64,000 nt of DNA from Bacilli bacterium (GTDB lineage: Bacteria > Bacillota_I > Bacilli_A > ML615J-28 > CAG-698): assembly GCA_017962745.1 (NCBI GenBank), contig JAGCUR010000002.1:62001-126000 (forward strand), in the 5' to 3' direction. The number at the start of each line of letters is the position of its first letter. The stretch's first letter is position 1. The notes under the pieces were generated by a model. The model had not been told where the DNA came from. It saw only the letters and a list, made by a program, of their open reading frames with translations, and searched no databases. The position numbers were made by a program, and so were the translations under genes. This document shows positions 11,060 through 63,196 of this stretch, one piece after another.

Positions 11060-12973
11060 ATGTTTAAGAAAATCACTTTTTTTATTTTTGCCTTTTTCTT
11101 ATTATATATAGGGCTTTTATCTATTAATAAGGTAAGCGCAAATGAAGAACAAATTATATATTTAGAACTAGGATTAACTGGCTATGATTATGAAATAGAA
11201 GATAGTGTAATCGTAAGTGGGACTATTGATTTTAATAATATTGGTGAATACAAACTTACTTATTTTAATAAAATAACTAAATCGTATTTTGATATTTTAT
11301 ATATAGTAACTGATAGTAGCGATATTAATTATTTTCAAAAGATGATTGAAATAAAGAATACTTCGGCCACCTTTACCCCTAATAATATTATTTATAAAGA
11401 TGGGATAGTGATTATAGCTAGCTATAAGTTAGACCCAGCAAAACTAAATAGCTTAAATGATAAAAAAGCGATGATCAATGTTTATAATGGCACGACTTTA
11501 AGGGCCATGATGACTTATAGTTATTATTCAGAAGTAGTCAAAATGGTTTTTTCCCAAGCCGGTTTTATAGCTCTAGTTAGGTATGATGATAATGGTAAAA
11601 ACCATTTTAAAATAATTGAATATAACTTAAATGGGGAATTTTTAAGAGAATATAGTGTAGCTAGTAATGCATTTGATAAACCGCAAAATATTATAATCGC
11701 TGATGATTATATTTATTTAGTCTTTAATTCATCTTCAAATACGTCCCCTTTCATTTCTAAAATCAGCGGTATCTCAACAGCCTTTATCGCAAAGATTAAT
11801 TACTTGAGTTTTGAAGAAGTAAATTATATTTCATTTGGAAATAATACTTCAAATGAGATAATTGATTCGGTTTACAATGATGATTATTTATATGTAGTCT
11901 TTAAACCATTTGGGAGTGGGGACTTTTTAAAGAAGTTATCAGGATCTAAATTTATCGTTAAACTAGATAAAGATTTACATATTGAAAAATATGTTGAGAC
12001 TGATAATGATGATGGTTATTTTGGTATAAACCTAAATAACGATACTATCTATTTGTTTACATCTGCTAGCCTTCCGACCAACAAAATAACAATATCAGCC
12101 TTCGATCTAGATTTAAATAAAGGGGCTAAACAAGAATTATTTATTAACAATAATGATTATTTAGTAACTAAAATAATAAGTTATTCGAACCATTCTTTAT
12201 TTGTAAATGGCAAAGATAAAGAAGAAGATACGCCTTGCATGCTAGGTGCCATCAATATTGAAAATGGTGAATTTTTGTTTCATCCAGAATTAAAAACAAA
12301 CTTCAAAATTAACAATATTGAAGTAGTAGATAATGTAATTTATTTATATGGGATAAGCGATAAAGATATTATTATTTATGATTATTATTATCTAAATAAT
12401 AAAGAAGATAATCTATTTTTGAATAATTCTTTAGTTGAAGGTGATGTAATTAGCGATACTTTTAGTGAAAATCAGCTATATGGCGCTAACCAAAAAATAG
12501 TTAAATTCAGGATGGGAAATAGCTTTTATATTAAAAAAATAGATTATTATTTGCCCCTAGAATCTTCTATTATGGGTGGGTCTGCTTATGAATTAGGGAC
12601 TAAAATATATGCAAATGGACGCATATATTTAGATGATTTAGAGATCAAAAATGGTTATAGTATTGAAAAAGTTGGTGCTTATTTACTTAAAGTTTATGGG
12701 ACTGATAATGAAGTAGCCTATCTTGAATTTAGTGTAAAACAGATAATTAATGAAGCAACAAGTGCTCCCTTAATAGAAGTAGAATCAGTAGATATTACTA
12801 ATCTAGATTATGAAGAATATAAAGTAAGTGACTTATCGATTAGGGATATAAATATCGCTAGCACCGAAGATAATAATAAACTGGGCGATGTTGGGATTAT
12901 CTTAATAATTCTATCTGCTAGTCTAATTATAGCTTTTATCATACCCGTTACTAAAATAAGAGGTAGGAAATAA
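11060..12973 (+). CDS. large surface protein with signal peptide, Ig-like start and C-terminal membrane anchor
   Basis: A 637-residue protein. Residues 1-27 form a signal peptide with a likely cleavage after VSA. Next comes a segment (GTIDFNNIGEYKLTYF) like DUF5011/HYR-type Ig domains. Residues 80-440 contain recurring short beta-strand motifs (DDYIYLVF, DDYLYVVF, NNDTIYLF), suggesting a beta-propeller-like fold. One hydrophobic helix near residues 610-630 and a basic end (TKIRGRK) anchor it with the bulk outside. I recognise no function. AGGAGG precedes the start. Its TAA overlaps by one base the ATG of a similar protein, so the two form a coupled pair. Confidence 0.65.
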   Translation: MFKKITFFIFAFFLLYIGLLSINKVSANEEQIIYLELGLTGYDYEIEDSVIVSGTIDFNNIGEYKLTYFNKITKSYFDILYIVTDSSDINYFQKMIEIKNTSATFTPNNIIYKDGIVIIASYKLDPAKLNSLNDKKAMINVYNGTTLRAMMTYSYYSEVVKMVFSQAGFIALVRYDDNGKNHFKIIEYNLNGEFLREYSVASNAFDKPQNIIIADDYIYLVFNSSSNTSPFISKISGISTAFIAKINYLSFEEVNYISFGNNTSNEIIDSVYNDDYLYVVFKPFGSGDFLKKLSGSKFIVKLDKDLHIEKYVETDNDDGYFGINLNNDTIYLFTSASLPTNKITISAFDLDLNKGAKQELFINNNDYLVTKIISYSNHSLFVNGKDKEEDTPCMLGAINIENGEFLFHPELKTNFKINNIEVVDNVIYLYGISDKDIIIYDYYYLNNKEDNLFLNNSLVEGDVISDTFSENQLYGANQKIVKFRMGNSFYIKKIDYYLPLESSIMGGSAYELGTKIYANGRIYLDDLEIKNGYSIEKVGAYLLKVYGTDNEVAYLEFSVKQIINEATSAPLIEVESVDITNLDYEEYKVSDLSIRDINIASTEDNNKLGDVGIILIILSASLIIAFIIPVTKIRGRK

Positions 12974-15129
12974 TGGTTAAGCTAATATTATCTTTAATGG
13001 TGGGAATAAGCTTGTTATCACCAAAATATAGCAAGTATTTTATCGAAATAGATGAAGTGGTTTATGAAAGAACTGGTGATCTGGTTTATTTATATGATGA
13101 TAGTTACAAAGTAAAATATAAAGATATTCTAATTTATGAAGCTGCATATTATACCGATTTAACAATCGGTATTTTAAATAACAATATTTATATTTTATTT
13201 AAAGGTGATAATTATACTTTATCTAAATATTCTCTAAGCGGTAATCTAATTAGCTCAATAAATCTATTTAACTGTTATAGTTATCTAGATTTATTAACAA
13301 CCGCTGATTATTTATATTTATATGGCGGTATTGATTTAGATTTATTAAATAGTGAGGCCATAAAAGAAGAAAATAGCTTAACTAATTTTGACCTAGATTT
13401 ACTAACTAAATGTGCCGATTTAGATCATTACCTGCTAGATGGCTTCACCATGAAGCTAAACTTAGATTTAGAGATTGAGGAAATCAATATTTATAAAGGC
13501 AATAAAGAAGAAAAAATATCTAAAATTTATAATATCGATAACAAGTTATACTTAACTGGTAGCAAAGATTATTTAAGCGAAGGAATATATGGAAATGGGG
13601 GATTAACTGAGGCTTACTTTTTAATATTACTAGAAGATAGTGAAATTATCTTAAGAGAAATATATCAAGAAAAGATTATTAACTTAGTAAAAGTTAATAA
13701 TAATTTAGTAGTTTGTACAAAAGATGAAATATATTGTTATGATAGCGATTATTCTTTAGTTTTAAGCCTAAATTTGCCATCTGAATCAATCTTTAGTTAT
13801 GTAACGTTTAATTATTCGCTTTTGGTTATAAGCGAAGATAAAGGATATTTGATTGATTTAGATGATGGGAAGCTGTTAGATAGTTTTGATATAGATGGAT
13901 ATGATTATGTATGCGCTAGTGACTTTCTATATTTTAAAAAAGAAGGTAAACCTTATGTACTTGATTTTTTAGAAGAAGGGTTATTTTTTGATGAAGTAAA
14001 TTATTGTTATTATAGACAGATTGAAGAAATGAATGGGTTATATGGAAAATATATGCTAGTAGATACAATGTATGAACCTTATTTTGATAGATTAGTATAT
14101 GGGGCTTACGATGTTACATATTTTTATAAGTACTCTGATTTAGTGATTGAAAAATGCGGTAAGTGTGTTGTGGAGAGGGAAGCAAATGTTATGGAAGGAG
14201 GAATTTATCCTGCTAATTATCATTTGTTTTTTAGTGGGACCGGCTACCTTGATGGTAAAATGATTTACCAAAATCATGAGCTAGTGGAAGCTAAAGAGTA
14301 CGAACTGGTTTTAGAAGGGACAAATGAAACTAGAACAATTCATTTTAGAGTGGATAGTAATCAAATTAGTTTTACTAATAATATCAATACTAGTTATGAT
14401 TTATATGTTTTAGAAAATGAATATATTAAAGTAGAAATCTCATCTTCAGATAAATTAGAATCAGTCTATGTTAATGATAAGTTATATGATGTAATAAGCG
14501 AAAATGATAAATACTATATTAACTTGCTAGTTTATAGAGGTGATAATGGGTATATAATTAGATATGCGCTAGATGAAGCTGGTAATAAAATACCAATTAA
14601 TTACTTTGTTAAAGTGTTAGGGATTATTGATGGGATAATTGATATTGATACTAATGCATATATTAATAATGAAGATGTAGAAGTTGATTTAATAATTAAT
14701 AGTGGGAATGAATTAATTAGAGTAATTGTTTTAAAAGTATTAAAAGATGGGATTGAAAATATTTATTATTATCCAGTAGGTAATATAAATATTGACCTAC
14801 CTAATTTAGATAGTGCTAATTTTAATTTATATTTAGGTTTATATAATGGATCAACTAGTTATGATTTAATAAAAGTATTTGAAGGGATGGTAGATGATAG
14901 CCTATACCTAGAAGTAGAGATTAAAAGCAAGCAAGAATTTATCGAAGAGTTAGCTTTTAAGATAAATAAAAATAAAGGGATTAGTTATATTGAAGTAGGT
15001 GATAATTATATTAATTTAGCCAAAACTAAGAATTATAAATTAATTATCATATTTTCTTGCATTAGCATTTTAATAAGTATTATTATCTTAACTACAAGAT
15101 ATAAAAAGAAGATTAAAAAAAATAAGTAA
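12973..15129 (+). CDS. large single-pass surface protein, partner of the preceding gene
   Basis: A 718-residue protein with a short hydrophobic N-terminus that may be a weak signal peptide. A long extracellular region follows with repeated strand motifs such as NNNIYILF, ADYLYLYGG and IDNKLYLTGS, again propeller-like. A C-terminal membrane helix (about residues 690-712) precedes a lysine-rich tail (RYKKKIKKNK). The middle holds a Cys pair (KCGKCVV near residue 396). Base use is very AT-rich, with many ATA and TTA codons, unlike the ribosomal genes. It starts on the last base of the preceding stop codon. Its topology and style match the neighbour, so they may form a complex. No known family is recognised. 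Confidence 0.6.
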   Translation: MVKLILSLMVGISLLSPKYSKYFIEIDEVVYERTGDLVYLYDDSYKVKYKDILIYEAAYYTDLTIGILNNNIYILFKGDNYTLSKYSLSGNLISSINLFNCYSYLDLLTTADYLYLYGGIDLDLLNSEAIKEENSLTNFDLDLLTKCADLDHYLLDGFTMKLNLDLEIEEINIYKGNKEEKISKIYNIDNKLYLTGSKDYLSEGIYGNGGLTEAYFLILLEDSEIILREIYQEKIINLVKVNNNLVVCTKDEIYCYDSDYSLVLSLNLPSESIFSYVTFNYSLLVISEDKGYLIDLDDGKLLDSFDIDGYDYVCASDFLYFKKEGKPYVLDFLEEGLFFDEVNYCYYRQIEEMNGLYGKYMLVDTMYEPYFDRLVYGAYDVTYFYKYSDLVIEKCGKCVVEREANVMEGGIYPANYHLFFSGTGYLDGKMIYQNHELVEAKEYELVLEGTNETRTIHFRVDSNQISFTNNINTSYDLYVLENEYIKVEISSSDKLESVYVNDKLYDVISENDKYYINLLVYRGDNGYIIRYALDEAGNKIPINYFVKVLGIIDGIIDIDTNAYINNEDVEVDLIINSGNELIRVIVLKVLKDGIENIYYYPVGNINIDLPNLDSANFNLYLGLYNGSTSYDLIKVFEGMVDDSLYLEVEIKSKQEFIEELAFKINKNKGISYIEVGDNYINLAKTKNYKLIIIFSCISILISIIILTTRYKKKIKKNK

Positions 15130-39898: not shown

Positions 39899-41773
39899 AT
39901 GAGACGACTAGTTTTCTTATTATATATAGGATTGATATTTACTATTTTAATATTTACCGGTTGTACTAAACAAAAGATGGAAATTAGTGGGCCTAGTGCA
40001 GTAGCAGTAGGTGCTACAATTACCTTAGAAGTTAAGACTTCCTCAAATGAACCGGTTATTTGGCGTAGTTCTGATAAAGAAGTTGCTACTGTTTCTAAGG
40101 GAATCGTAACTGGAGTTAGTGCAGGGGAAGCCACGATTTATGCAAGCTGCGGAAAAGAGGATGCTAGCATTAAAATTAAAGTAGTAGGTGAAATAGAAGA
40201 TAAAGAAGATGATCCATACTTAGGAAAAGCTAAAGAGATTCTAGGAAGAATGACTTTAGAACAAAAAGTAGGAGAAATGTTTATCATTAGCATTAATGGT
40301 AGTTTGTCTAATAACACTAAACGTCTAATTGGAAATAATAATATTGGTAATGTAATCCTAAATCCAAGCAAAGTTTTAGATTATCAAGCATTAATTGATT
40401 TAGTAAATTCAGTTCAAACTGAAATATTAACAAATAATGTCATTCCAGGATTTATTATCAATACTAAAGATAGTGCTACATATCGATTATTAGATAGTCT
40501 AGCTACTATTCCATCAAGTATTACAGTACTAGCTACTGATAATGAAGCTAATGCATATGATGTAGCGTATGGATTAGGTAATGAACTTAGAGCTTTTGGT
40601 TTTAATGCAACTTTAAGTCCAAATATGTTACTAGAAGATGATTCAGAATATAGTTATTTAGATGATCCGGCTACAGTTACTAAGTATGCGATGAAAGAAA
40701 TGGATGGATATACTTATGCCGGCATTATGCCAATTGGCATTAGCTTCCCAGGAACGGGCGAAGCTAGATGGGATACCATGCCAACAAATGGCAATTCAAT
40801 GGATGCTTTAAAGAAAGAAGATTTAATGCCATTCTTAGAAGCATTTGAAGGAGGACTTGATGCTGTTGTAGCGAGTAGCGTAATATTTACAGTATTTGAT
40901 ACTACATATCCAGCTACCTTATCTTATCCAATTATCACTACAATGCTTAAAGAAGGACTTGAATATGATGGCTTAATCATTAGTGATTATCTAGATACGG
41001 ATCTAATGAACCGCGATTACCGCGATGAAGAAGATAATGTAGCTGTTATGGCGATTAATGCTGGCCTTGATATGTTAACTTATTCGAGTGATCAATATGT
41101 TTCGGAAGACTATAGTGCTGTACTAGATGCTATCGCCGCTGGTAAAATTGAAAAATCAAGAATTGATGAAGCAGTATTAAAGATTATCTTAAAGAAATAT
41201 AAATATGATTTACTTGATGGCAATAGTTATCAACCAGCATGGGATGCGGTTGATTATGATGCTTCAAATGAATATGCAACTTATGAACGCGTAGCCAAAG
41301 AAAGCATAGCCTTACTTGCTGGTAATATCCCAGAACTTGATACATCTAAGAAAATATTAGTAGCTTCATCTGTAGCTAGTAGTGATTTAGGAATAGAAAT
41401 AGAAGTTGAAAATAGTAATTCATTTGCATATGTGGTTTATGAAGAACTACTTGCAAAAGGATATACTGATGTAACATGGCAAGTATATGATCCAAATGAC
41501 TGGTGGAGTGCTAGAGAAATCGGTGATGCTAGTTGGGATTATGATTATGTAATATTTGCAGTTGGTAGTGCAGAACTACGTAGAAGAATGAGTTTTGCGG
41601 ATAACGCAATATTTGTATCATTAACTGTACCAATCGATATTTCCAGAATCACTGGTTATATTTGCTACATTTCAGCTTATGGATATGAAAGAGCTAATGT
41701 AGATGCGGTGATTGATTGCTTACTAAATGGGGCAGAAATCAAAGATTACAGGCCGATTGAGGTTCATGAATAA
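39899..41773 (+). CDS. lipoprotein with Big_2 domain and degenerate GH3 (NagZ-like) domain
   Basis: A 624-residue lipoprotein (FTGC, Cys22). Residues 28-98 are a bacterial Ig-like Big_2 domain (WRSSDKEVATVSKGIVTGVSAG). Residues 110-435 resemble the TIM barrel of family 3 beta-N-acetylhexosaminidases (MTLEQKVGEMFI; GLIISDYLD with Asp363 at the nucleophile position). The KHFPGHG motif is replaced by GISFPGTG (282-287) and the Asp-His acid/base motif by DTMP (292-295), so normal glycosidase activity is doubtful. A C-terminal domain of about 190 residues follows. It splits ybxB from rpoB and is insulated by terminators on both sides. TATAAT at 39874-39879 may be its -10. Confidence 0.75.
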   Translation: MRRLVFLLYIGLIFTILIFTGCTKQKMEISGPSAVAVGATITLEVKTSSNEPVIWRSSDKEVATVSKGIVTGVSAGEATIYASCGKEDASIKIKVVGEIEDKEDDPYLGKAKEILGRMTLEQKVGEMFIISINGSLSNNTKRLIGNNNIGNVILNPSKVLDYQALIDLVNSVQTEILTNNVIPGFIINTKDSATYRLLDSLATIPSSITVLATDNEANAYDVAYGLGNELRAFGFNATLSPNMLLEDDSEYSYLDDPATVTKYAMKEMDGYTYAGIMPIGISFPGTGEARWDTMPTNGNSMDALKKEDLMPFLEAFEGGLDAVVASSVIFTVFDTTYPATLSYPIITTMLKEGLEYDGLIISDYLDTDLMNRDYRDEEDNVAVMAINAGLDMLTYSSDQYVSEDYSAVLDAIAAGKIEKSRIDEAVLKIILKKYKYDLLDGNSYQPAWDAVDYDASNEYATYERVAKESIALLAGNIPELDTSKKILVASSVASSDLGIEIEVENSNSFAYVVYEELLAKGYTDVTWQVYDPNDWWSAREIGDASWDYDYVIFAVGSAELRRRMSFADNAIFVSLTVPIDISRITGYICYISAYGYERANVDAVIDCLLNGAEIKDYRPIEVHE

Positions 41774-51547: not shown

Positions 51548-53614
51548 ATGCCTCGTGAAATAGCATTAGCAAATGTACGAAACATAGGTATTATGGCTCA
51601 TATCGATGCTGGAAAAACAACTGTTACTGAAAGAATTCTATTCCATGCAGGCAAAATTCATAAAATGGGTGAAACCCATGATGGAGCTAGCCAAATGGAC
51701 TGGATGGAGCAGGAAAAGGAAAGAGGAATTACAATTACTTCCGCTGCCACAACTGCTTATTGGAAAGGTAATCGTATTAACATTATTGATACTCCCGGCC
51801 ATGTAGACTTTACAGTAGAAGTATCTAGATCTTTGAGGGTTCTAGATGGTGCTGTAACAGTATTGGATGCTCAAGCAGGGGTTGAACCTCAAACAGAAAC
51901 TGTTTGGCATCAAGCGACTGAATATAAAGTTCCAAGAATTGTTTTAGTTAATAAAATGGATAAAACTGGTGCTGATTTCAATTATTCAGTTGCATCTTTA
52001 GGTAAAAGATTAGGTGCCAAAGCATTTCCTATTCAAATGCCGATTGGCTCTGAAGCAACATTCACTGGAATTATCGATCTAGTTTGTATGAAAGCTTATC
52101 ATTTTAATGGCGATCCTGATGAGAACTTTTCAGAAATCGCAATCCCTGATTATCTAATGGATGAAGCATTAGCTAAAAGGGATGAATTAATATCAGCGGT
52201 TGCTGATTATGATGATGATCTATTAATGCAATACTTAGATGGATGTGAAATTGATATTGACTTATTCAAAAATGCCATTAGAAAAGCTACTTTAAGCGTT
52301 GAATTCTTCCCTGTGCTTTGCGGAAGCGCATTTAAAAATAAAGGCTTAAAGCTAGTACTTGATGCAGTAGTTGATTACTTACCATCACCACTAGATGTTG
52401 CTAGTATGATGGGAACAAATGCGAGAGGTGATGAAGTTGAAATCATCGCTGATGATAATAAAGGCTTCGCTGCTTTAGCATTTAAAGTAATGACTGACCC
52501 ATTCGTTGGTAAGTTAACATTCTTTAGAGTATATTCAGGCACATTAGAAAGTGGAAGTTATGTATATAATTCCACAAAAGATAAAAAAGAACGAATCGGC
52601 CGTATTCTTCAAATGCATGCGAACAATCGTACGGAGATTAAAGAAGTTCATGCTGGTGATATCGCTGCCGCAGTTGGTTTAAAAGATACAACTACTGGTG
52701 ATACATTATGTAGCGAAAACCACAAAGTAATCTTAGAAAAGATTGTCTTCCCAGAACCTGTCATTTCGGTTGCTATTGAGCCAAAAACAAAAGGTGACCA
52801 AGACAAGATGGGCGTTGCACTTGCAAAACTAGCCGAAGAAGATCCAACATTTAGAACTCATACCGACATGGAAACTGGTCAAACAATAATCTCAGGAATG
52901 GGTGAACTTCACCTTGATATTATTGTAGACAGAATGAAACGTGAGTTTAGAGTAGAAGCCAATGTTGGTAAACCACAAGTATCGTATCGTGAAACAATTA
53001 AATCGATGGGCGAAGTCCAAGGTAAATTTGTTCGTCAATCTGGTGGTCATGGCCAATATGGTGATGTATGGATCAGATTCGAACCAAATCCTGGTAAAGG
53101 ATTTGAGTTTGTTGATGCTATAGTTGGTGGTGTAGTTCCTAGAGAATACATTCCAGCTGTACAGAAAGGATTAGAGGCCGCAATAACTAATGGTAACTTA
53201 GCTGGATATCCAACAATTGATATCAAAGCTACATTATTTGACGGTAGTTATCATGAAGTGGATTCAAGCTCTGTTGCGTTTGAAGTCGCTGCTTCAATGG
53301 CATTTAAAGCCTCAGCTCAAAAGTGTCAACCTATTTTACTAGAACCGATTATGAGTGTAGAAGTACTAGTACCTGATGAATATTTAGGTAGCGTAATTGG
53401 TGACTTAACTAGTAGAAGAGGAACAATTGAAGGGCAAGATAGTCATGGACATGTACAAAGCGTTAAAGCTTTAGTTCCACTATCTAATATGTTCGGTTAC
53501 GCAACAGCTCTAAGAAGTAATACTCAAGGACGTGGAAACTATACTATGCAATTTAATAAGTATAAAGAATGTCCTAAGAGTATTGCTGATGAAGTTATTA
53601 AGGCTCGTTCTTAA
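51548..53614 (+). CDS. fusA: elongation factor G
   Basis: A 688-residue translocation GTPase. G1 is [10 protein letters not shown]2 lies in [12 protein letters not shown]3 is DTPGHVDF, and G4 is NKMDK. Domains II to V follow, with the domain IV segment [28 protein letters not shown]. It moves tRNAs and mRNA after peptide bond formation. Length is standard. AAGGAGATATG precedes the ATG at 51548. Confidence 0.97.
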
Positions 53615-53652
53615 TAATAGAAAACAATTGGCAATTGTTTAATTTTAAACTC

Positions 53653-53681
53653 TTGCAATTTTAAATAAGATAAAATATAAT
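53653..53681 (+). promoter_or_regulatory. promoter of tuf
   Basis: TTGCAA at 53653-53658 and TATAAT at 53676-53681 with a 17-base spacer, so tuf has its own promoter besides possible read-through from fusA. Confidence 0.8.
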
Positions 53682-53715
53682 TAAGTATGTATGATATTTA
53701 AGGGAGGAAAATTAA

Positions 53716-54897
53716 ATGGCAAAAGCTAAATATGAACGTACTAAACCCCATGTAAACATTGGTACTATTGGCCATGTTGACCATGGAAAAACTACTTTAA
53801 CTGCTGCTATCACTAAAGTTTTAGCAAAGCAAGGTTTCGCAAAAGAAATGAAATACGACCAAATTGATGGTGCTCCAGAAGAAAAAGCTCGTGGTATAAC
53901 TATCAATACTGCTCACGTAGAATATGAAACAGCAAATAGACATTACGCACAAGTAGACAGCCCAGGACATGCTGACTATGTTAAGAACATGATCACTGGA
54001 GCTGCACAAATTGATGGTGCAATTCTAGTTATCGCTGCAACTGATGGCCCTATGGCTCAAACTCGTGAACACATCTTACTTGCTCGTCAAGTTGGTGTTC
54101 CTCGTTTAATCGTATTCTTAAACAAATGCGATCTAGTTGATGATGAAGAATTACTAGAATTAGTTGAAATGGAAGTTATCGAATTATTAGAAGAATATGG
54201 CTTCCCTGGCGATACTCCAATCATTCGTGGTTCTGCATTAAAAGCTGGTGAAGGCGATCCAGTTGAAGAACAACATATCTTAGATTTAATGAAGGTTGTT
54301 GATGAATATATCCCTACTCCAGTACGTGACACTGATAAACCATTCTTAATGCCTGTTGAAGACGTATTCTCTATTTCAGGACGTGGAACAGTTGCTACAG
54401 GACGTGTTGAACGTGGTACTGTTAAAGTTGGTGATCAAGTTGAAATCGTTGGTATTAAACCTACTCAAACTACTGTTGTTACAGGCGTTGAAATGTTCCG
54501 TAAATTATTAGACCAAGCTGAAGCTGGTGATAACATTGGTACATTACTTCGTGGTATCGCAAGAACAGATGTAGAACGTGGACAAGTATTATGTAAACCA
54601 AAGAGCGTTAACCCTCATTCAGAATTCGATGCACAAGTTTACGTATTAAGCAAAGAAGAAGGTGGACGTCATACTCCATTCTTCACTAACTATCGTCCTC
54701 AATTCTATTTCCGTACAACTGACGTTACAGGCGTTATTGAATTAAAAGACGGCGTAGAAATGGTTATGCCTGGTGATAACGCATTATTAAACGTTAAGTT
54801 AATTCACCCAATCGCAATCGAACAAGGAACTAAGTTCTCTATTCGTGAAGGTGGACGTACAGTAGGTGCTGGTAACGTAGTTAACATCATTAAATAA
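53716..54897 (+). CDS. tuf: elongation factor Tu
   Basis: A 393-residue GTPase delivering aminoacyl-tRNA. G1 is [10 protein letters not shown]2 [14 protein letters not shown]3 [10 protein letters not shown]4 NKCD and G5 RGSALKAG. Domains II and III are complete, ending [12 protein letters not shown]. Codon choice is strongly biased. GGAGG precedes the ATG. It is followed by a terminator with a nine-base T run. Confidence 0.97.
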
Positions 54898-54919
54898 TTG
54901 AATTATAAGTAAAATTTAT

Positions 54920-54959
54920 AAGGCTTCAATCATTTTTTATGATTGGAACCTTTTTTTTT
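54920..54959 (+). terminator. terminator of tuf
   Basis: AAGGCTTCAATCAT (54920-54933) pairs imperfectly with ATGATTGGAACCTT (54939-54952), followed by a long T run to 54959. Confidence 0.83.
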
Positions 54960-54969
54960 GCCCTTTTTG

Positions 54970-54999
54970 TTGACTTTACTTAAGAAAAAAAGATACAAT
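54970..54999 (+). promoter_or_regulatory. promoter of the Ig-repeat lipoprotein gene
   Basis: TTGACT at 54970-54975 and TACAAT at 54994-54999 with an 18-base spacer. Confidence 0.7.
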
Positions 55000-55037
55000 A
55001 TATATGTAAATAATTAATTGAAAAATAGGAGGTTTCA

Positions 55038-57872
55038 ATGTTTACAAAAGTTAAAAGATTTATGGCTTTCGCAGTTCTTGTAATCGCTTGCATAATGCTA
55101 GTTGCCTGCGGTGAAAAAGAACCTGCTAAACCAGTTTTAAGAGCTCCAAGTGAAATTACAATTTTAGTTGAAGATGCTCCACTTGAAAAAGCTACAAGTG
55201 TTGATGGCGATGATATCGTTCTTGGAATTGAAGAACAAGACGGCGTTGACACATCTGTTACATGGGAATCAAGCAATCCTGCTATTGCAACAGTTGATGA
55301 TCAAGGTTTCGTTACTCCTGTATCTGCAGGTGAAGTAAAAATCATTGCTACTTCAGTTAAAAACCCTGATGTTCAAGCTGAAATTAAACTACGTGTTCAT
55401 CCAGCTGATATCGGTGCTTTACTAGCTGAAGCAGGAAGTTTCGTAAAAGAAAACTTAGAATTCATCGTTCTTAGTGAAAGTGCTAGAAAATTTGCTCTTC
55501 CTACTAACTACAGACCTGATCTTCTAAAATATCAATATAGAAGCTTATCAACTGGTACAGTAGATGATAGAAATAATTATAGAAACGATACATGGCTAAT
55601 GAGCGATAGAGCAGACACTGTAGAAAAACTTGAATGTACAATTACATACGTTCCTACTGGTGCTGTTACTACTGTAATGCTTGAAGTTTACATCGTTAAA
55701 GATGCAGAAAACAATGACTTCACAAAGATCGCTGCTACAAAAGCAATGATCAGAGCATTATTCGAAAATGAAAACTTAGATGCATATCAAGTAGCTGAAA
55801 AAGCATTAGCTGTTCAAAAAGCTGCTGACGTTGCAGTTATTTGGTCTTCAGATGTTGCTGACGTATTAAAAGTTGTTTACGTTGAAGGTGAAGCAACAGA
55901 TGATAAGACAGATGACGTATTCAAATTAGTTTACACTAGACCATTAGACTGGACTGCAGTTGAATTAACTGCTACAGTTATGGCTGGTTCTCAAGGTGAA
56001 ACTGAAAAGTTCAACATCAATGCTGTTGGTTATACAAAGACTGAAAAGATCGAATACTTCAGAGATGTTGTATGCGCTAACTTACCTGCTGCAGATGCAC
56101 ATGTAAGCAAAGACATCAAGTTACCATTAGCTGATGCTATGTTCGGTTTAAGAATTTCTTGGGCTTCAGATCATCCTGAATTATTAAGTGCTGAAGGTGT
56201 TTATACAGATGACACTACTAAAGATTCAACTCAAGGCACAAAAGTTACTTTAACAGCAACTGTTAAATATCAAAGTCCTAACGATTACATCGGTCAAGTT
56301 AATGAAGCTACTGGTGAAATCTATGAAGACTTTACAGATCCTAACTCATTCATCGAAGAAGTAAAATTCGAAATCATGGTTTACCCTTGCACAGAATCTA
56401 CAAGATCTGCTAACAAAGTTGCTGCTTATACAAAGGCAACTATTGCTGGTGGAACTGGTTGGTTCCCTTGGGGTAAGATTGATCGTGCTTCTAACCAATT
56501 AACTGGTCTTCCTGCAACAATGGGAGAAACTGGTATTACTGGCGACTTAGCAGCTGTTGCACTTAACTGGTCATGCAGTGAAGAAGGTTTATTCGATTCT
56601 GAATGGAATCTATTAAAACAATATTTACGTTACCATCCAGTAACATTATCTGCTACAGTTCAAATCGATGGTGTAACTGAAGTTATCGAAGTACCACTAA
56701 ACGTTGGTATTGCACAAAAAGAAATGACTTCACACATTGGTGGTTCATTCTCAAGATTAGCTGTTCAAAAGAGCGATTCTGTTTACCAAGCAATGGACTC
56801 ATTACAAACAATCTCTGCATTCGATGCTAGAGTTGGTTCTCAACAAGTTTGGTACAAAGGCGACCAAAAAGGTCAATTCTATGAAATCAGAATGGGCGCT
56901 AGTGAAGATTTAACTAAGAACATTATCGTTCAACCAGCCGTAGAAGAAGATACTGCTTATGAAACTAAACCAGTTACAATTAGCATGCAATTCGGTGTTG
57001 GTGTTAACTGTGGATTTGGTGGAGTTACATTATATTGGGATGATCCAGATTCTGGCATTAGATTCCAATTCTATACTGTAGAAGCTATGACATGGGTTAT
57101 CGGACCTGATGATGTAGATGCAAACGGTGACTTCACAGATGCTGATGGCGATGGTAAGATCTTCAGTATGTTAGACAGATATCATCAAAATTGGGATCAT
57201 ATGGTTATCATCAATATGTCTGGTAAAGACGTTAAGATTCCTATTTCATATTCTAAAGATTATGACAATATGACTACTCAATCACGTCAAACTGCTTATT
57301 GGCCATATGATGAAAAGATTTTCGGTTATACTGAAAAATATGGTTCTGAAGGTTTAGGTGCATTATCATTATCATTATATTCTGGCGATTATGCTGGTTT
57401 AGTACAAGCTGATGGTAAAGTTGGTTGTATCGAAGCTGAAACTGAATGGGAAGATTACCTAAGCGATTTATCAAGCGGATTAACTGATGATGCTGGTAAT
57501 ACAGTTTACTGCCAATACTTAACACTTCAAGATGGTGGTATCGCTTGGACAGCTGGTGAAGCTCAAGATGATGGTTATACTGACACTAAAGGTGCTTCAG
57601 TACATCATACTACTAAGGAAAATGTTGGAATTATGTTCTCTACTCCTGGCAATGAAATCCATGTTGAGTTCTGGAACATTCATCCATGCAACACATTCAC
57701 TACTAATGATGAATGGCAACTTCCTGAAGGCTATACTGCACAATTAAGCGGTGTAAGAGTTCGTGAAAGCAAACTTACTAACGTTTACTTCTGGGCTAGA
57801 ACATTAGATGCTACTAAGTACAATGTTAACGCTGCATGGATTGCTGCTGCACAAGCTGAATTAGGTGAATAA
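55038..57872 (+). CDS. large lipoprotein with Big_2 and atrophied Ig-like repeats
   Basis: A 944-residue lipoprotein (LVAC, Cys24). Residues 35-125 contain a Big_2 domain (WESSNPAIATVDDQGFVTPVSAG). Several further units share the pattern of a WSS or WAS strand, a short loop and a VTLTATV-like strand (for example near 275, 375 and 520), resembling atrophied bacterial Ig domains. Residues after 570 form a different domain with DADGDGK and rich Trp/Tyr content, which might bind glycan or calcium; this is inference. Its codon use is close to that of the ribosomal genes (ATA is rare), so it may be abundant. AGGAGG precedes the ATG; it has its own promoter and terminator. Confidence 0.7.
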   Translation: MFTKVKRFMAFAVLVIACIMLVACGEKEPAKPVLRAPSEITILVEDAPLEKATSVDGDDIVLGIEEQDGVDTSVTWESSNPAIATVDDQGFVTPVSAGEVKIIATSVKNPDVQAEIKLRVHPADIGALLAEAGSFVKENLEFIVLSESARKFALPTNYRPDLLKYQYRSLSTGTVDDRNNYRNDTWLMSDRADTVEKLECTITYVPTGAVTTVMLEVYIVKDAENNDFTKIAATKAMIRALFENENLDAYQVAEKALAVQKAADVAVIWSSDVADVLKVVYVEGEATDDKTDDVFKLVYTRPLDWTAVELTATVMAGSQGETEKFNINAVGYTKTEKIEYFRDVVCANLPAADAHVSKDIKLPLADAMFGLRISWASDHPELLSAEGVYTDDTTKDSTQGTKVTLTATVKYQSPNDYIGQVNEATGEIYEDFTDPNSFIEEVKFEIMVYPCTESTRSANKVAAYTKATIAGGTGWFPWGKIDRASNQLTGLPATMGETGITGDLAAVALNWSCSEEGLFDSEWNLLKQYLRYHPVTLSATVQIDGVTEVIEVPLNVGIAQKEMTSHIGGSFSRLAVQKSDSVYQAMDSLQTISAFDARVGSQQVWYKGDQKGQFYEIRMGASEDLTKNIIVQPAVEEDTAYETKPVTISMQFGVGVNCGFGGVTLYWDDPDSGIRFQFYTVEAMTWVIGPDDVDANGDFTDADGDGKIFSMLDRYHQNWDHMVIINMSGKDVKIPISYSKDYDNMTTQSRQTAYWPYDEKIFGYTEKYGSEGLGALSLSLYSGDYAGLVQADGKVGCIEAETEWEDYLSDLSSGLTDDAGNTVYCQYLTLQDGGIAWTAGEAQDDGYTDTKGASVHHTTKENVGIMFSTPGNEIHVEFWNIHPCNTFTTNDEWQLPEGYTAQLSGVRVRESKLTNVYFWARTLDATKYNVNAAWIAAAQAELGE

Positions 57873-57884
57873 TTCAAAACTAAA

Positions 57885-57912
57885 GGCTAGTAAATTTTAC
57901 TAGCCTTTTTTT
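57885..57912 (+). terminator. terminator of the Ig-repeat lipoprotein gene
   Basis: GGCTAGTAA (57885-57893) pairs with TTACTAGCC (57897-57905) over three bases, then a seven-base T run. Confidence 0.86.
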
Positions 57913-57919
57913 AATGCAT

Positions 57920-57948
57920 AAAACCTCAACGGGTATTGTTGAGGTTTT
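57920..57948. terminator. terminator shared with the convergent glycosyltransferase gene
   Basis: AAAACCTCAAC (57920-57930) and GTTGAGGTTTT (57938-57948) form an 11-bp stem with a seven-base loop; T-rich on the + side, weaker on the - side. It overlaps the stop codon of the minus-strand gene. Confidence 0.65.
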
Positions 57949-59251
57949 ATTTTATGTCTTCAATTTTAATATCTTCAATATGTTTAATTGGTTTCCACTG
58001 GACCTTTACAAATATTGATATAAAAGAAATTAATAAATAGCTTATGGCATAAAGTGGGAAAGTGAAGATATGCCATATTTTCTTAATTTGTTTAGCCTTA
58101 ATGTCTTTCCAACAAAGCACGCTAACAATAATTGCAACTAAAATAGTATAAGCCACGCAGAAGATCAAACTATCAATTAATGGTCTAACTGCTGCTTCAA
58201 AATACTTTTGAAAACTAACATTAGCGACTAATGCATATATTCCATATGATAGTGGTAAAACAAATCCTAACCAACCAACGCTTAGGATTGATGCTGGAAA
58301 AGTATGGGCATATAAATCAATATTTGAATAACTTGGGTGCTTAATTCCATTTTTAAATAATTTAAAATGGAATTTTTTAAAGCATTGATGATTACCTTTG
58401 CACCAACGCATTCTTTGTCTCCAAGAATCTTTGAATGATTCAGGGTGTTCATCATACATTATCGCATCAGCAACATATGCTACTTTATATCCTTTTAAAT
58501 ATTCATCGATTGAGAACTCTACATCCTCAATTAATAAGTGGTTAACCCAACCACCATTTTCTTCAATAATATCTTTACTAACCATAAAGCCAGTTCCCGA
58601 TACGTAAGTAGTCATTTTAAATCTGCTACGCATGCGGTGCATTACTCTACATTCTCTAAAGAATGTCATACCAGCCCCACTTGCTACCCAAGTAGATCCG
58701 TAGTTTTTAGAATTTCTAAAAGAAGTAGCAATTTTGTATCCTTCATCAAAGGCTTTATTCATTTCTTTTGTGAATGATTTATCAACTAAATTATCCGCAT
58801 CAAATACGATAAATGCTTCAACACGCTCTTCATCATTAATTGCATACTTTAATACTTCATCAAGGGCATAACTTTTACCAATTAATTCGGTATTAAATCT
58901 TTCAATTACATTAGCACCTTTTTCTTTGGCAATACTAGCAGTATTATCGGTGCAGTTATCGGCAATCACATATATTTTATATAAGTCAGCCGGATAATCT
59001 TGGGCTTTAATACTATCGATTAGGTTACCAATCACTTTTTCTTCATTGCGAGCGGAAATGATAAAGGCATAAAAGTGATTAGTACTTGCCTCTTGATATT
59101 TTTTCTTTTTGAAAAAGATTGATAATATCAAAAAAAGATTATGGTGAAAGTAAATGATAGCAAGAATTGCAAATACTATGTAGTTGATTAGACTTAAGAT
59201 TTCCCCAAAATTTATTTCTGGTAATATCTCTGGAAAAAACTTAAACACCAT
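57947..59251 (-). CDS. processive glycosyltransferase family 2, N-acetylglucosaminyltransferase-like
   Basis: A 434-residue membrane glycosyltransferase. One N-terminal membrane helix precedes a GT-A domain with ISARNEE, IADNCTDNT, the metal-binding DADN and the acceptor/processivity motifs EDVE and QRMRW; two to three C-terminal helices complete a BcsA/IcaA-like shape. Such enzymes extend and export beta-linked polysaccharides. No PilZ domain is present. The start is the ATG at 59251; the upstream in-frame GTG forms part of the AGAAGGTG ribosome binding site. It is monocistronic with its own promoter; no export or deacetylase partner is adjacent. The polymer is unknown. Confidence 0.82.
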   Translation of the reverse strand: MVFKFFPEILPEINFGEILSLINYIVFAILAIIYFHHNLFLILSIFFKKKKYQEASTNHFYAFIISARNEEKVIGNLIDSIKAQDYPADLYKIYVIADNCTDNTASIAKEKGANVIERFNTELIGKSYALDEVLKYAINDEERVEAFIVFDADNLVDKSFTKEMNKAFDEGYKIATSFRNSKNYGSTWVASGAGMTFFRECRVMHRMRSRFKMTTYVSGTGFMVSKDIIEENGGWVNHLLIEDVEFSIDEYLKGYKVAYVADAIMYDEHPESFKDSWRQRMRWCKGNHQCFKKFHFKLFKNGIKHPSYSNIDLYAHTFPASILSVGWLGFVLPLSYGIYALVANVSFQKYFEAAVRPLIDSLIFCVAYTILVAIIVSVLCWKDIKAKQIKKIWHIFTFPLYAISYLLISFISIFVKVQWKPIKHIEDIKIEDIK

Positions 59252-59275
59252 TATCACCTTCTTTTACTTTATATC

Positions 59276-59304
59276 ATTGTATCTTATTATCTAATTAAAG
59301 TCAA
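59276..59304 (-). promoter_or_regulatory. promoter of the glycosyltransferase gene
   Basis: On the minus strand, TTGACT (59304-59299) and TACAAT (59281-59276) are separated by 17 bases. It is divergent from the tatD promoter. Confidence 0.7.
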
Positions 59305-59311
59305 AGAATGG

Positions 59312-59340
59312 TTAAACAAAGTATTGAAATATGGTATAAT
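59312..59340 (+). promoter_or_regulatory. promoter of tatD and the HtrA-like genes
   Basis: TTAAAC at 59312-59317 and TATAAT at 59335-59340 with a 17-base spacer; the -35 is poor, the -10 is perfect. Confidence 0.5.
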
Positions 59341-59406
59341 GGATAAAACTAGGATTATTAAGAATCGTTTAAGAAAAAAGTGGATAATATATATTGTAGG
59401 TGAGAT

Positions 59407-60159
59407 ATGTTAATCGACACACATTGCCATCTTAATGATGAAGCATTCCAAGACAATCTAGAAGAGATAATTGCGAGAGCTAAAAGCCGTGGTATTAGCA
59501 AAATAATCGTTATTGGTTATAACAAAGCTTCAAGTATTGAAGCGGTAAAGCTAGCAAATTCGTATGAAGGCATTTATGCTTCAATTGGTGTTCATCCAAG
59601 TGATGTCCAAAAAGAAGAAGATAACTTAGACTGGCTTTATGAATTAGCTAAGGACAAGAAAGTTGTAGCAATTGGAGAAATTGGCTTAGATTATTATTGG
59701 GATAAATCATATAATGATTTACAAAAAGAATGGTTTATTAAGCAAATTAATATTGCGAAAGAACTAGGATTACCGATTGCGGTGCATTGCCGCGATGCCA
59801 ATCAAGATTGTTTTGATATCATTAAAGAGCATGGAAATGGATGTGGCGTAATTCATTGCTATTCGGGTAGCTTCGAGATGGCTAAGGAATATGTAAAGCT
59901 GGGCTATTATCTTGGCATTGGTGGTGTAATAACATTTAAGAATAGCCATTTAGGAGAAACAGTTGCAAAACTTGGTATTAATAATATCGTAACTGAAACT
60001 GATGCACCTTATTTGGCACCAGTTCCATATCGCGGAAAAACTAATGAGCCTGCTTATATTTATGAAGTAGTACAAAAGATTAGCGAAGTAACTGGTATTA
60101 TTTTTGAAGAAGTAGAAAAGAAAGTAGAAGAGAACACTTATAAATTATTTAAAATTTAA
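59407..60159 (+). CDS. tatD: TatD family metal-dependent hydrolase
   Basis: A 250-residue amidohydrolase-type TIM barrel with the TatD motifs: DTHCHLND at the start, IGEIGLDYYW, PIAVHCRDAN, IHCYSG and TETDAPYLAP. Family members have 3'-5' DNase and related activities; metal ligands look complete. Length is standard. AGGTGAG precedes the ATG. In Bacilli the gene often follows metG; here it heads a probable operon with two exported proteases, the next of which starts 12 bases later. Confidence 0.93.
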   Translation: MLIDTHCHLNDEAFQDNLEEIIARAKSRGISKIIVIGYNKASSIEAVKLANSYEGIYASIGVHPSDVQKEEDNLDWLYELAKDKKVVAIGEIGLDYYWDKSYNDLQKEWFIKQINIAKELGLPIAVHCRDANQDCFDIIKEHGNGCGVIHCYSGSFEMAKEYVKLGYYLGIGGVITFKNSHLGETVAKLGINNIVTETDAPYLAPVPYRGKTNEPAYIYEVVQKISEVTGIIFEEVEKKVEENTYKLFKI

Positions 60160-60171
60160 GGATATAGCATT

Positions 60172-61872
60172 ATGAAGAAATTTTTAACAATTTTCTTATT
60201 AATATTTGCTTTATTATTTGCTTCAGCTGCGGCAAGCAAGGGGCCAAAGAATCTAACGATTCATTATGATATGGCTCAACATGTGTATGTAGGGGAACAG
60301 TTTGGCCTAAGATCTAATAGCTTATATACATATAGGAGCACTAATGAGGCTATTGCTTCATATGATGAAGCTAATGGCGTCGTTACAGCCTTATCTAGTG
60401 GCTATGTAGTGATTCAAAAGGTCAATCGAGAAACTGGTGAAGTTGTAAAGACTTATACGCTACTAGTTAAAGATGAAGCAAGTAATATTACCATTATTGG
60501 TACTAATAGCATGCATGTTGGGGATATTTATACATTTGAAGCAAATGTTTATCCAGATTGTGCTAGTAAAGATGTAATTTGGTCTAGTAGCGATGAAGCG
60601 GTAGTAACAGTTGGTGAAGATGGCAAAGCAAGTGCGGTTGCGAAAGGATTAGTGACACTTAAAGCAACATCTAAAGATTATAACGATGTATATGGAACTA
60701 TTTATGTAATGGTATCAGAAGTAGATGATATTGAAACAGAAACACAAAACATTACAATCGATGGATCTGATTTGAGCGAAGCTTTTGAAGCAGTTGGTAG
60801 AAAAAGTGAATCATCAGTCATTATGGTAACAGGCTACCAGGTAAATGGTGATAAAAAGAAAGAAGCATCGGTTGGCTGCGGAATAATTTATAAACGTATT
60901 GCTCACCTAAATGATGGAACAGAAACTGAAGAAGTAGTTATTGATACAAACACAGTATTAAATTATGAATATTATGTAGTTACAAATAGACATGTAGTGG
61001 CTGAAACTACATATAATGAAAGAACAGCTACATCTACAACAACTAATTATGATTATATTGGCTTATATTACGGCGCAAGCAGTGAAATTGGGGCTAAGAT
61101 CATCGCCTATGATGCAAAAGTTGATATTGCCGTTATATCATTTACATCTACGGTTTATTTCCCAACGGCAACATTAGGTGATAGCGATGATGTACAAGCT
61201 GGTGAATTCATCGTATCAATTGGAACAGCCGAAGGAAAAGAGTTCTTTAGAACTTTAACATTTGGTATTGTTTCTCATCCACAAAGATATATTTCAGATG
61301 ATACCGATGGCGATGGTACTAATGATTGGGACGCAGAATATATTCAACATGATGCACCAATTAATAATGCGGACTGCGGAAGCCCAATTATTAATATGAA
61401 AGGCGAAGTAATTGGTATTAATACAACTAAGAAGATTGCATCTTCTAGTGGTATTAGAGTTGAAAACTTATCATTTGCCATTCCAATTAATCTAGTTAAA
61501 ACATTAATTGCTAAGCTAGAAAAAGGAGAAACAATCAATCGACCAATACTTGGTGTATCGATTATGGATGTTAAGACAATCTTAGCTAATGCGGATTTGT
61601 TTGCAACCCCTGGTTATGCAACTGATGATGGAATTGTTATTCCTGATATTATTGAATTTGGATTCTATGTATCAGAAGTTACTGAAGGTGGTGTAGGTCA
61701 CAAAGCTGGTATGCTTCCTGGTGATATCGTTACCGCATTTAATGGTGTAGAAGTGAGATACTCATATCAATTAAGAGCTCAACTTGGTAACTTTATTATC
61801 GATAGTGGTCAAACAACAACGATTGTTGTTTATCGTAACGGAGAATTTGTAACGTTAGAGGTTACATTCTAG
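60172..61872 (+). CDS. HtrA-like protease homologue with cysteine in place of the catalytic serine
   Basis: A 566-residue exported protein. A signal peptide (1-20) is followed by two Ig-like units (about 25-105 and 107-185; WSSSDEAVVTVGEDGKA), a trypsin-like domain (215-440) and a C-terminal PDZ domain (455-560; GVGHKAGMLPGDIVTAFNG). The triad positions are His274 (TNRHVV), Asp318 (KVDIAVI) and Cys402: the GNSGGP site reads ADCGSP (TGC codon at 61375). The neighbouring paralogue has the normal serine. A chymotrypsin-fold cysteine protease, or an inactive chaperone or decoy, is possible. No cysteine motif resembling a lipobox is present. It lies just after tatD. Confidence 0.85.
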   Translation: MKKFLTIFLLIFALLFASAAASKGPKNLTIHYDMAQHVYVGEQFGLRSNSLYTYRSTNEAIASYDEANGVVTALSSGYVVIQKVNRETGEVVKTYTLLVKDEASNITIIGTNSMHVGDIYTFEANVYPDCASKDVIWSSSDEAVVTVGEDGKASAVAKGLVTLKATSKDYNDVYGTIYVMVSEVDDIETETQNITIDGSDLSEAFEAVGRKSESSVIMVTGYQVNGDKKKEASVGCGIIYKRIAHLNDGTETEEVVIDTNTVLNYEYYVVTNRHVVAETTYNERTATSTTTNYDYIGLYYGASSEIGAKIIAYDAKVDIAVISFTSTVYFPTATLGDSDDVQAGEFIVSIGTAEGKEFFRTLTFGIVSHPQRYISDDTDGDGTNDWDAEYIQHDAPINNADCGSPIINMKGEVIGINTTKKIASSSGIRVENLSFAIPINLVKTLIAKLEKGETINRPILGVSIMDVKTILANADLFATPGYATDDGIVIPDIIEFGFYVSEVTEGGVGHKAGMLPGDIVTAFNGVEVRYSYQLRAQLGNFIIDSGQTTTIVVYRNGEFVTLEVTF

Positions 61873-61882
61873 AGGTATGAAT

Positions 61883-63196
61883 ATGAAAAAAATAGGAAGA
61901 TTATTTATAATTGTCATATTGTTTAGTATTACACTAGTGGGACTAACTGGCTGTGATATATTCGGTTCTAATACTTTAGCCATTGGCTCTAGCGTATCAA
62001 AGAGCGATATATACGTTGGGGAAGTATTAAAACTATATTCAAATGCTAGTGAAATTGGCCTTGAAGGTGAAGCTACTTGGTCTAGTTCTAATACTGATGT
62101 TGCTAGTATTGATGAAAATGGTGTTTTAGAAGCACTAGCAGCAGGTGAGACTACTATTACATTAACAGTTGGTGAACAAAGCGTAAGCGTTGATGTAACA
62201 GTTTTACTTAGAGCTGAAACTGCAAGATTAAGCGTAACTGGTAGTCAAACAGTAGAAATCGGAAAGACAGTAACGCTAGAAGCCACATTATACAATTCTA
62301 GCAGTAAAGCAGGTTTCAATTGGTCAAGCAGTAACCCTAGCATTGCTAGAGTTGATGAAAATGGTGTAGTAACTGGTGTTAGTGGCGGACTTTGTACAAT
62401 CATTGCTACTTGCAAAGATGATGATTCGATTAGCGGCTCTACATTAGTGTATGTAGTTGATGATACTAAAGAGTTAACAACTATCATTAATGCAATTTAT
62501 CAAGTAAGTGGTGATTTTGATTTCACTTCTTTATCAGAAAATGTAATTAACGTAATTGATAATAACTTAGAAAGCATCGTTGGTGTATCTAATTATGCTT
62601 ACCAAAAAGTTGGAAGTGGATTATATTCCGAAAATGTCCTTGTTAGAGTAGCAATTGGAACAGGCTTTGTATACGCTAAAGAAGCTACTGCAACTGAGGG
62701 TACATATAAATATAAAGTATTAACTAATCATCACGTAATTGAAGATAACGAACAAGTTAAGATTTACATTCAATCAATTGAAAAAGATATTGATGCGACA
62801 GTTTTAGTAAGTGATAAATCATTAGATTTAGCAGTTATTGAATTTACATATGCAATTGATATTAAACCAGCAACGCTTGGTAATATTGATACAGTTAAAG
62901 CAGGATCATTTGTAGTGGCAATTGGACACCCTACAGGATATGATTATTTCTCATCAGCTACATTTGGAATAGTTTCATATGTAAATAGAAAAATGCAAGG
63001 CGAAAAAGCCCTCTTTATTCAACATGATGCAGCTATCAATAGTGGTAATAGCGGCGGACCAATTTTTGATATGAATGGAACTGTCATTGGTATTAACACT
63101 TTAAAGATAGCAAGTGATGATGTAGATAATATGGGATTTGCTGTTTCTATTCAAACAGTAAGAGAATACTTAGCAGCAAATAATCTATTACCATAA
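61883..63196 (+). CDS. HtrA-like serine protease lipoprotein with two Big_2 domains
   Basis: A 437-residue lipoprotein (LTGC, Cys24) anchored outside the membrane. Two Big_2 domains (about 30-110 and 112-192; WSSSNTDVASIDENGVL and WSSSNPSIARVDENGVV) precede a trypsin-like S1C domain with an intact triad: His284 (NHHVIE), Asp315 (LDLAVIE) and Ser390 (GNSGGP). There is no PDZ domain, so it is a minimal DegP/HtrA-type protease. The ATG at 61883 is chosen because AGAGGT would abut the ATG at 61877. It follows the cysteine paralogue after ten bases and is probably cotranscribed with it. Confidence 0.88.
   Translation: MKKIGRLFIIVILFSITLVGLTGCDIFGSNTLAIGSSVSKSDIYVGEVLKLYSNASEIGLEGEATWSSSNTDVASIDENGVLEALAAGETTITLTVGEQSVSVDVTVLLRAETARLSVTGSQTVEIGKTVTLEATLYNSSSKAGFNWSSSNPSIARVDENGVVTGVSGGLCTIIATCKDDDSISGSTLVYVVDDTKELTTIINAIYQVSGDFDFTSLSENVINVIDNNLESIVGVSNYAYQKVGSGLYSENVLVRVAIGTGFVYAKEATATEGTYKYKVLTNHHVIEDNEQVKIYIQSIEKDIDATVLVSDKSLDLAVIEFTYAIDIKPATLGNIDTVKAGSFVVAIGHPTGYDYFSSATFGIVSYVNRKMQGEKALFIQHDAAINSGNSGGPIFDMNGTVIGINTLKIASDDVDNMGFAVSIQTVREYLAANNLLP

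Follow-up and report, generated by a model that had tools for sequence, protein, structure and literature searches.

Results

Two adjacent HtrA genes with different nucleophile residues

In the 64,000-nucleotide stretch of DNA analysed here (the window), two adjacent genes, referred to as B and C, encode HtrA-family proteins that a Bacilli bacterium (Acholeplasmatales-like) has on the outer side of its membrane. B, which carries a PDZ domain and has a cysteine at the nucleophile position, is probably a non-catalytic HtrA pseudoprotease, co-expressed as the partner of the active, PDZ-less HtrA C. An earlier note on this DNA had described tandem HtrA-like reading frames with Cys in one and Ser in the other at the nucleophile position, and both are present as described. 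They form a tightly spaced pair, presumably co-transcribed, with the following features:

60172..61872, + strand: gene B, Big_2-Big_2-Trypsin_2-PDZ, 566 aa; signal peptide of the cleavable type, lipobox absent
60877..60879, + strand: Cys236 of B, at about chymotrypsin position 42; Ser in nearly all relatives, presumably close to the active site
60991..60993, + strand: His274, triad histidine of B (triad column)
61123..61125, + strand: Asp318, triad aspartate of B (triad column)
61297..61332, + strand: DDTDGDGTNDWD, calcium-loop-like acidic motif of B, in the loop ahead of the active-site loop (L3 position), from the alignment
61369..61371, + strand: Ala400 of B, in the oxyanion-hole glycine column (chymotrypsin 193); Gly in the sister species G001
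61375..61377, + strand: Cys402 (TGC), nucleophile position of B, from gapless alignment to C and orthologue comparison
61552..61866, + strand: PDZ domain of B (PDZ_6 and PDZ_2 over cut-off)
61877..63196, + strand: gene C, lipoprotein Big_2-Big_2-Trypsin_2, 439 aa, PDZ absent; starts 4 nt past gene B
61943..61954, + strand: lipobox LTGC of gene C, from the sequence
62732..62734, + strand: triad His286 of gene C (triad column)
62825..62827, + strand: triad Asp317 of gene C (triad column)
63050..63052, + strand: triad Ser392 (AGC) of gene C (triad column)

Pfam matched Trypsin_2 in both proteins (1e-20 in B and 4e-27 in C), as well as Big_2, and PDZ in B only. The contrast in anchoring that had been pointed out previously was recovered by motifs and Pfam: B has an AxA-type signal peptide and a PDZ domain, and C is a lipoprotein with an LTGC lipobox and no PDZ. 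No other Trypsin_2 genes are found in the genome from which the window comes. Sequence and fold searches alike placed B in the HtrA/DegP family; a single-chain structure model of B was obtained (pLDDT 77.5), and Foldseek confirmed the HtrA fold, with DegP, DegQ, and HtrA1 among the PDB and Foldseek matches of B. B thus has the arrangement that defines the HtrA/Deg family, a Trypsin_2-type protease domain followed by 0–3 PDZ domains, of which C has the protease domain only.

The register of the nucleophile is fixed by the motifs QHDAPIN-NADCGSP (B) and QHDAAIN-SGNSGGP (C), which align with zero gaps. Another serine acting as the nucleophile of B was ruled out, as the alignment is gapless from QHDxxIN to the end of the motif and the nearby Ser404 occupies position 197. 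His274 and Asp318, said in the earlier note to be kept, both lie on the triad columns. The same note took TGC to be two changes away from the AGC of the neighbour; the two codons (61375–61377 and 63050–63052) differ at one base, and the argument based on the codon therefore falls.

The combination of His-Asp-Ser and Gly193 that characterizes active HtrA/Deg serine proteases is present in C and missing from B (Cys402, Ala400). Judging from its sequence, C is expected to be an active serine protease, lipid-anchored and PDZ-less. According to the crystal study of MamO, a glycine at 193 is needed for the active loop of HtrA, and other residues are strongly disfavoured (PMC4794232). A replaced triad residue together with a non-glycine 193, the combination looked for in an HtrA pseudoprotease, is found in the window B; the sister copy in G001 has the triad change only. 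B also shows one trait of a clan PA cysteine peptidase, a Cys at 195 accompanied by His and Asp/Glu.

The cysteine is shared by a second species and B is under purifying selection

The second genome of the window genus, G001 (MAG RGIG8164, from water buffalo rumen), carries both B and C. Its B is 76% identical to that of the window (G000), with the loop SGDCGSA and, again, a TGC codon for the cysteine. An assembly or sequencing error is ruled out by this independent MAG, and the cysteine is not a sporadic change of one strain, being common to both species of the genus examined. The two Cys copies differ at the oxyanion position 193, which is Ala in G000 and Gly in G001.

Between G000 and G001, the dN/dS of the protease domains was 0.166 for B and 0.168 for C, and these equal values indicate that B is functional. 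That B would be a decaying duplicate without function is very improbable. Repeated loss of the nucleophile and a long branch speak for it, but the reading frames of B are full-length and stop-free in all 14 genomes that carry it, its overall dN/dS is about 0.2 (0.17 for the protease domain), and it always adjoins C. Neutral decay is ruled out by the dN/dS and the intact frames, and the earlier view that the Cys protein is not simply decaying holds, since it is under purifying selection.

B and C are always paired, and only B changes its nucleophile

Using C as the query, 43 genomes of the order were searched, and 28 genomes of the family were searched with B. B was detected in 14 family genomes and C in 15, as one contig ends ahead of B. 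The co-occurrence of the two genes, proposed earlier as a check, is complete: C adjoins B in all 14 B-bearing genomes, always in the order B then C and with a gap of 1–14 nt, so that in 14/14 cases B lies beside an active HtrA paralogue. Among the 43 order genomes searched with C, those of the order's other family yielded no such pair.

The nucleophile position of B is occupied by Ser in six genomes (G011, G013, G015, G020, G022, and G040), Asn in three (G042, G014, and G023), Cys in two (G000 and G001 only), Asp in two (G006 and G041), and Tyr in one (G018). The triad of C (Ser, His, and Asp), on the other hand, is complete in 14/14 readable copies. Every Ser or Cys copy of B has an intact His and Asp, and so do the copies of G006, G041, and G014; His is lost in G042, G023, and G018, the last of which has lost Asp as well. 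The Asp and Asn copies with His and Asp intact indicate that the remaining triad persists without catalysis, and its retention in the Cys copies, on which the earlier note mainly relied, is hence no sign of a thiol protease over a dead enzyme. In the B proteins of G014 and G023 (L090 and L092), the Asn replacement is accompanied by insertions in or next to the active-site loop.

In 11 of the 14 genomes B is a lipoprotein; the lipobox is absent from G000, G001, and G014, which also have no Trypsin_2 genes other than B and C. HtrA genes are found downstream of fusA-tuf-tatD in several genera (L094 in G022; 51548–63196 in the window). The arrangement fusA-tuf-tatD-HtrA-B-C, kept in several genomes, looks from gene order like the older one; the window genus lacks the additional HtrA, and its tatD lies directly next to B. 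In the window, tuf and tatD are separated by genes for a Big_2-like lipoprotein of 944 aa and a glycosyltransferase-like protein. Elsewhere in the window, 39899–41773 encodes a lipoprotein in which a Big_2-like segment is followed by a glycosidase-like domain (GH3-type, by eye), and two neighbouring genes at 11060–15129 encode large secreted proteins of 637 and 718 aa that have membrane segments at their C termini.

Loss of the serine and rates of change

In a protease-domain tree built without the triad columns, B formed one clade (98/91), as did C (99/98). The fewest changes on the gene tree are four losses of Ser and five residue changes. In the tree of rpoC, Ser genera are the closest neighbours of the Cys genus (88/73), which stands separate from g6 and from g5+g14. 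Several independent losses of Ser in B, favoured by both trees, are therefore likely, while a topology that unites the Ser-less copies in one clade was not rejected (p-AU 0.36).

Outside the triad columns, root-to-tip distances were 1.06–1.88 for the Ser-less B (1.19–1.32 in the Cys genus) and 0.67–1.01 for the Ser-type B. The B/C ratio was 1.21–1.47 for the Cys genus and 0.64–0.85 for the Ser copies, from few independent lineages, and the window genus is fast-evolving at rpoC also. On this longer time scale, B of the Cys genus resembles the other Ser-less copies. Among 72 positions with a conservation of 90% or more in canonical relatives, 57–65 are kept in the Ser copies of B, 53–54 in the Cys copies, 52 in the Asp copies, and 47–59 in the Asn and Tyr copies.

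Could the Cys form be a thiol protease?

We consider it quite unlikely that B works as a thiol protease of the chymotrypsin fold with a Cys-His-Asp triad, which would make it a cellular equivalent of the viral 3C/2A-type enzymes. Cys, His, and Asp are all kept in the two species at 76% identity, B is under strong purifying selection, and in G001 the changes Asn194 to Asp and Ser195 to Cys yield GDCG. The loop of G001 appears in this respect similar to that of the picornaviral 3C/2A cysteine proteases (clan PA), which combine a Cys nucleophile with the chymotrypsin fold; these proteins are however viral and have no PDZ or Big_2 domains, and the window copy lacks the oxyanion glycine. Thiol proteases of the chymotrypsin fold are not known outside viruses. 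The reading is most credible in G001, where the loop SGDCGSA keeps Gly193.

Several observations speak against it: Ala stands at the oxyanion position 193 in the window species, orthologues have Asp, Asn, or Tyr at the nucleophile site, and the loss of conserved positions in the Cys copies is on a par with that of the Asp type. In trypsin, the engineered replacement of Ser by Cys gave a thiol enzyme inactive toward amides (PMC6642262). In addition, when 395 genomes of this class were scanned with a pattern that requires Gly193 and so misses copies like that of the window, only one of the five matches, G001, was a real Cys HtrA; the other four look, by eye, like nucleosidases. No natural Cys nucleophile in an HtrA was found in a search of the literature. 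Of the two interpretations offered in the earlier note, a non-proteolytic regulator of the partner is better supported, and the thiol protease is weakened by the Asp, Asn, and Tyr orthologues, by Ala400, and by the wrong codon argument.

Cys236 and the acidic loop

Cys236 occurs in exactly four B proteins, those with Cys or Asp as the nucleophile residue, with His274 kept in all of them, and in 0 of 57 other HtrA rows. This distribution would suit a former active site that is now a metal-binding or redox site in which Cys236 and His274 are joined by Cys402, or by Asp in the g6 lineage, a reading that we regard as unlikely. A second origin of the residue is suggested by the grouping of G006 and G041 with G042, which lacks Cys236 (99/97), and the protease domain of MamO binds metal. 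Against this, only two lineages are involved and a shared origin was not rejected (p-AU 0.245), the closeness of residues 236 and 402 is a prediction from the fold, and the metal of MamO is bound elsewhere on it.

In the family sample, most HtrAs of the B, A, and D types, most of the Ser-less B included, have a motif similar to DDTDGDGxxDWD, which is absent from the C partners. Because most B proteins carry this acidic motif, B may sense calcium through the loop, which points to a possible calcium control of HtrA.

Discussion

The constant pairing of B and C, the repeated replacement of Ser in B but never in C, and the purifying selection on B were all observed directly, and they are the basis on which we favour B as a pseudoprotease beside an active partner; we infer that it lacks proteolytic activity and may form a physical complex with C. 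The active site of B would no longer be constrained by catalysis, with Cys402 as one of several replacements (Cys, Asp, Asn, and Tyr), while the HtrA fold, Big_2, PDZ, and the acidic sensor-loop motif would have been retained. B may then act by binding, by recruiting substrates, or by sensing a signal and regulating C, possibly with both proteins joined in a mixed trimer or hexamer. Several points go against this reading: Cys is known from two species only; G001 keeps Gly193, and its loop, SGDCGS, is similar to the one found in viral cysteine proteases with this fold; a single origin of all the Ser-less copies was not rejected; the branch lengths come from few lineages; and the protease domain of MamO, the nearest parallel, is not enough to activate MamE.

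Pairs of active and inactive HtrAs, as well as heterohexamers of PDZ-less and PDZ-bearing ones, are already known, and the present pair appears similar to them in outline. In the MamE/MamO system of magnetotactic bacteria, the inactive HtrA promotes the activity of the active one without its own triad, and pseudoproteases arose in three taxa. As in our case, two HtrAs are encoded in one cluster, one active and the other altered at the nucleophile, and inactive copies have originated repeatedly; MamO, like the window B, has an altered nucleophile (Thr) and a non-glycine 193 and keeps His and Asp (PMC4794232). MamO, however, needs its TauE domain to activate MamE; the protease domain does not suffice by itself. 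Here, neither a TauE transporter domain nor magnetosome genes are present, PDZ is on the altered protein and missing from the active partner, Big_2 domains are present, and the lineage is unrelated. B is not MamO proper, as the TauE domain is absent and the NCBIfam MamO model gives 21.5 bits against a cut-off of 800.

A PDZ-less HtrA working with a PDZ-bearing one is also known from Arabidopsis, where Deg5 (PDZ-less) and Deg8 (with PDZ) form heterohexamers (PMC3640471, PMC4754418). Ser is kept in both of these, though, and the PDZ-bearing one alone is active as a recombinant protein, whereas here it is the PDZ-less C that is expected to be active. From canonical HtrA/DegP (MEROPS S1C), with which it shares the fold and PDZ, B differs by the loss of the nucleophile and of the oxyanion glycine. 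CspB, CspA, and CspC of Clostridioides difficile likewise combine an active protease with pseudoproteases that have a regulatory or sensing role, but they have the subtilisin fold and act in spore germination (PMC6636752).

A Cys form that did cleave proteins would be without a known cellular precedent. Gene B offers a natural series with Ser, Cys, Asn, Asp, or Tyr at the nucleophile position and a constant partner C, which lets one ask how an enzyme turns into a regulator and, with PDZ on the altered B and catalysis on C, whether both work as one mixed complex.
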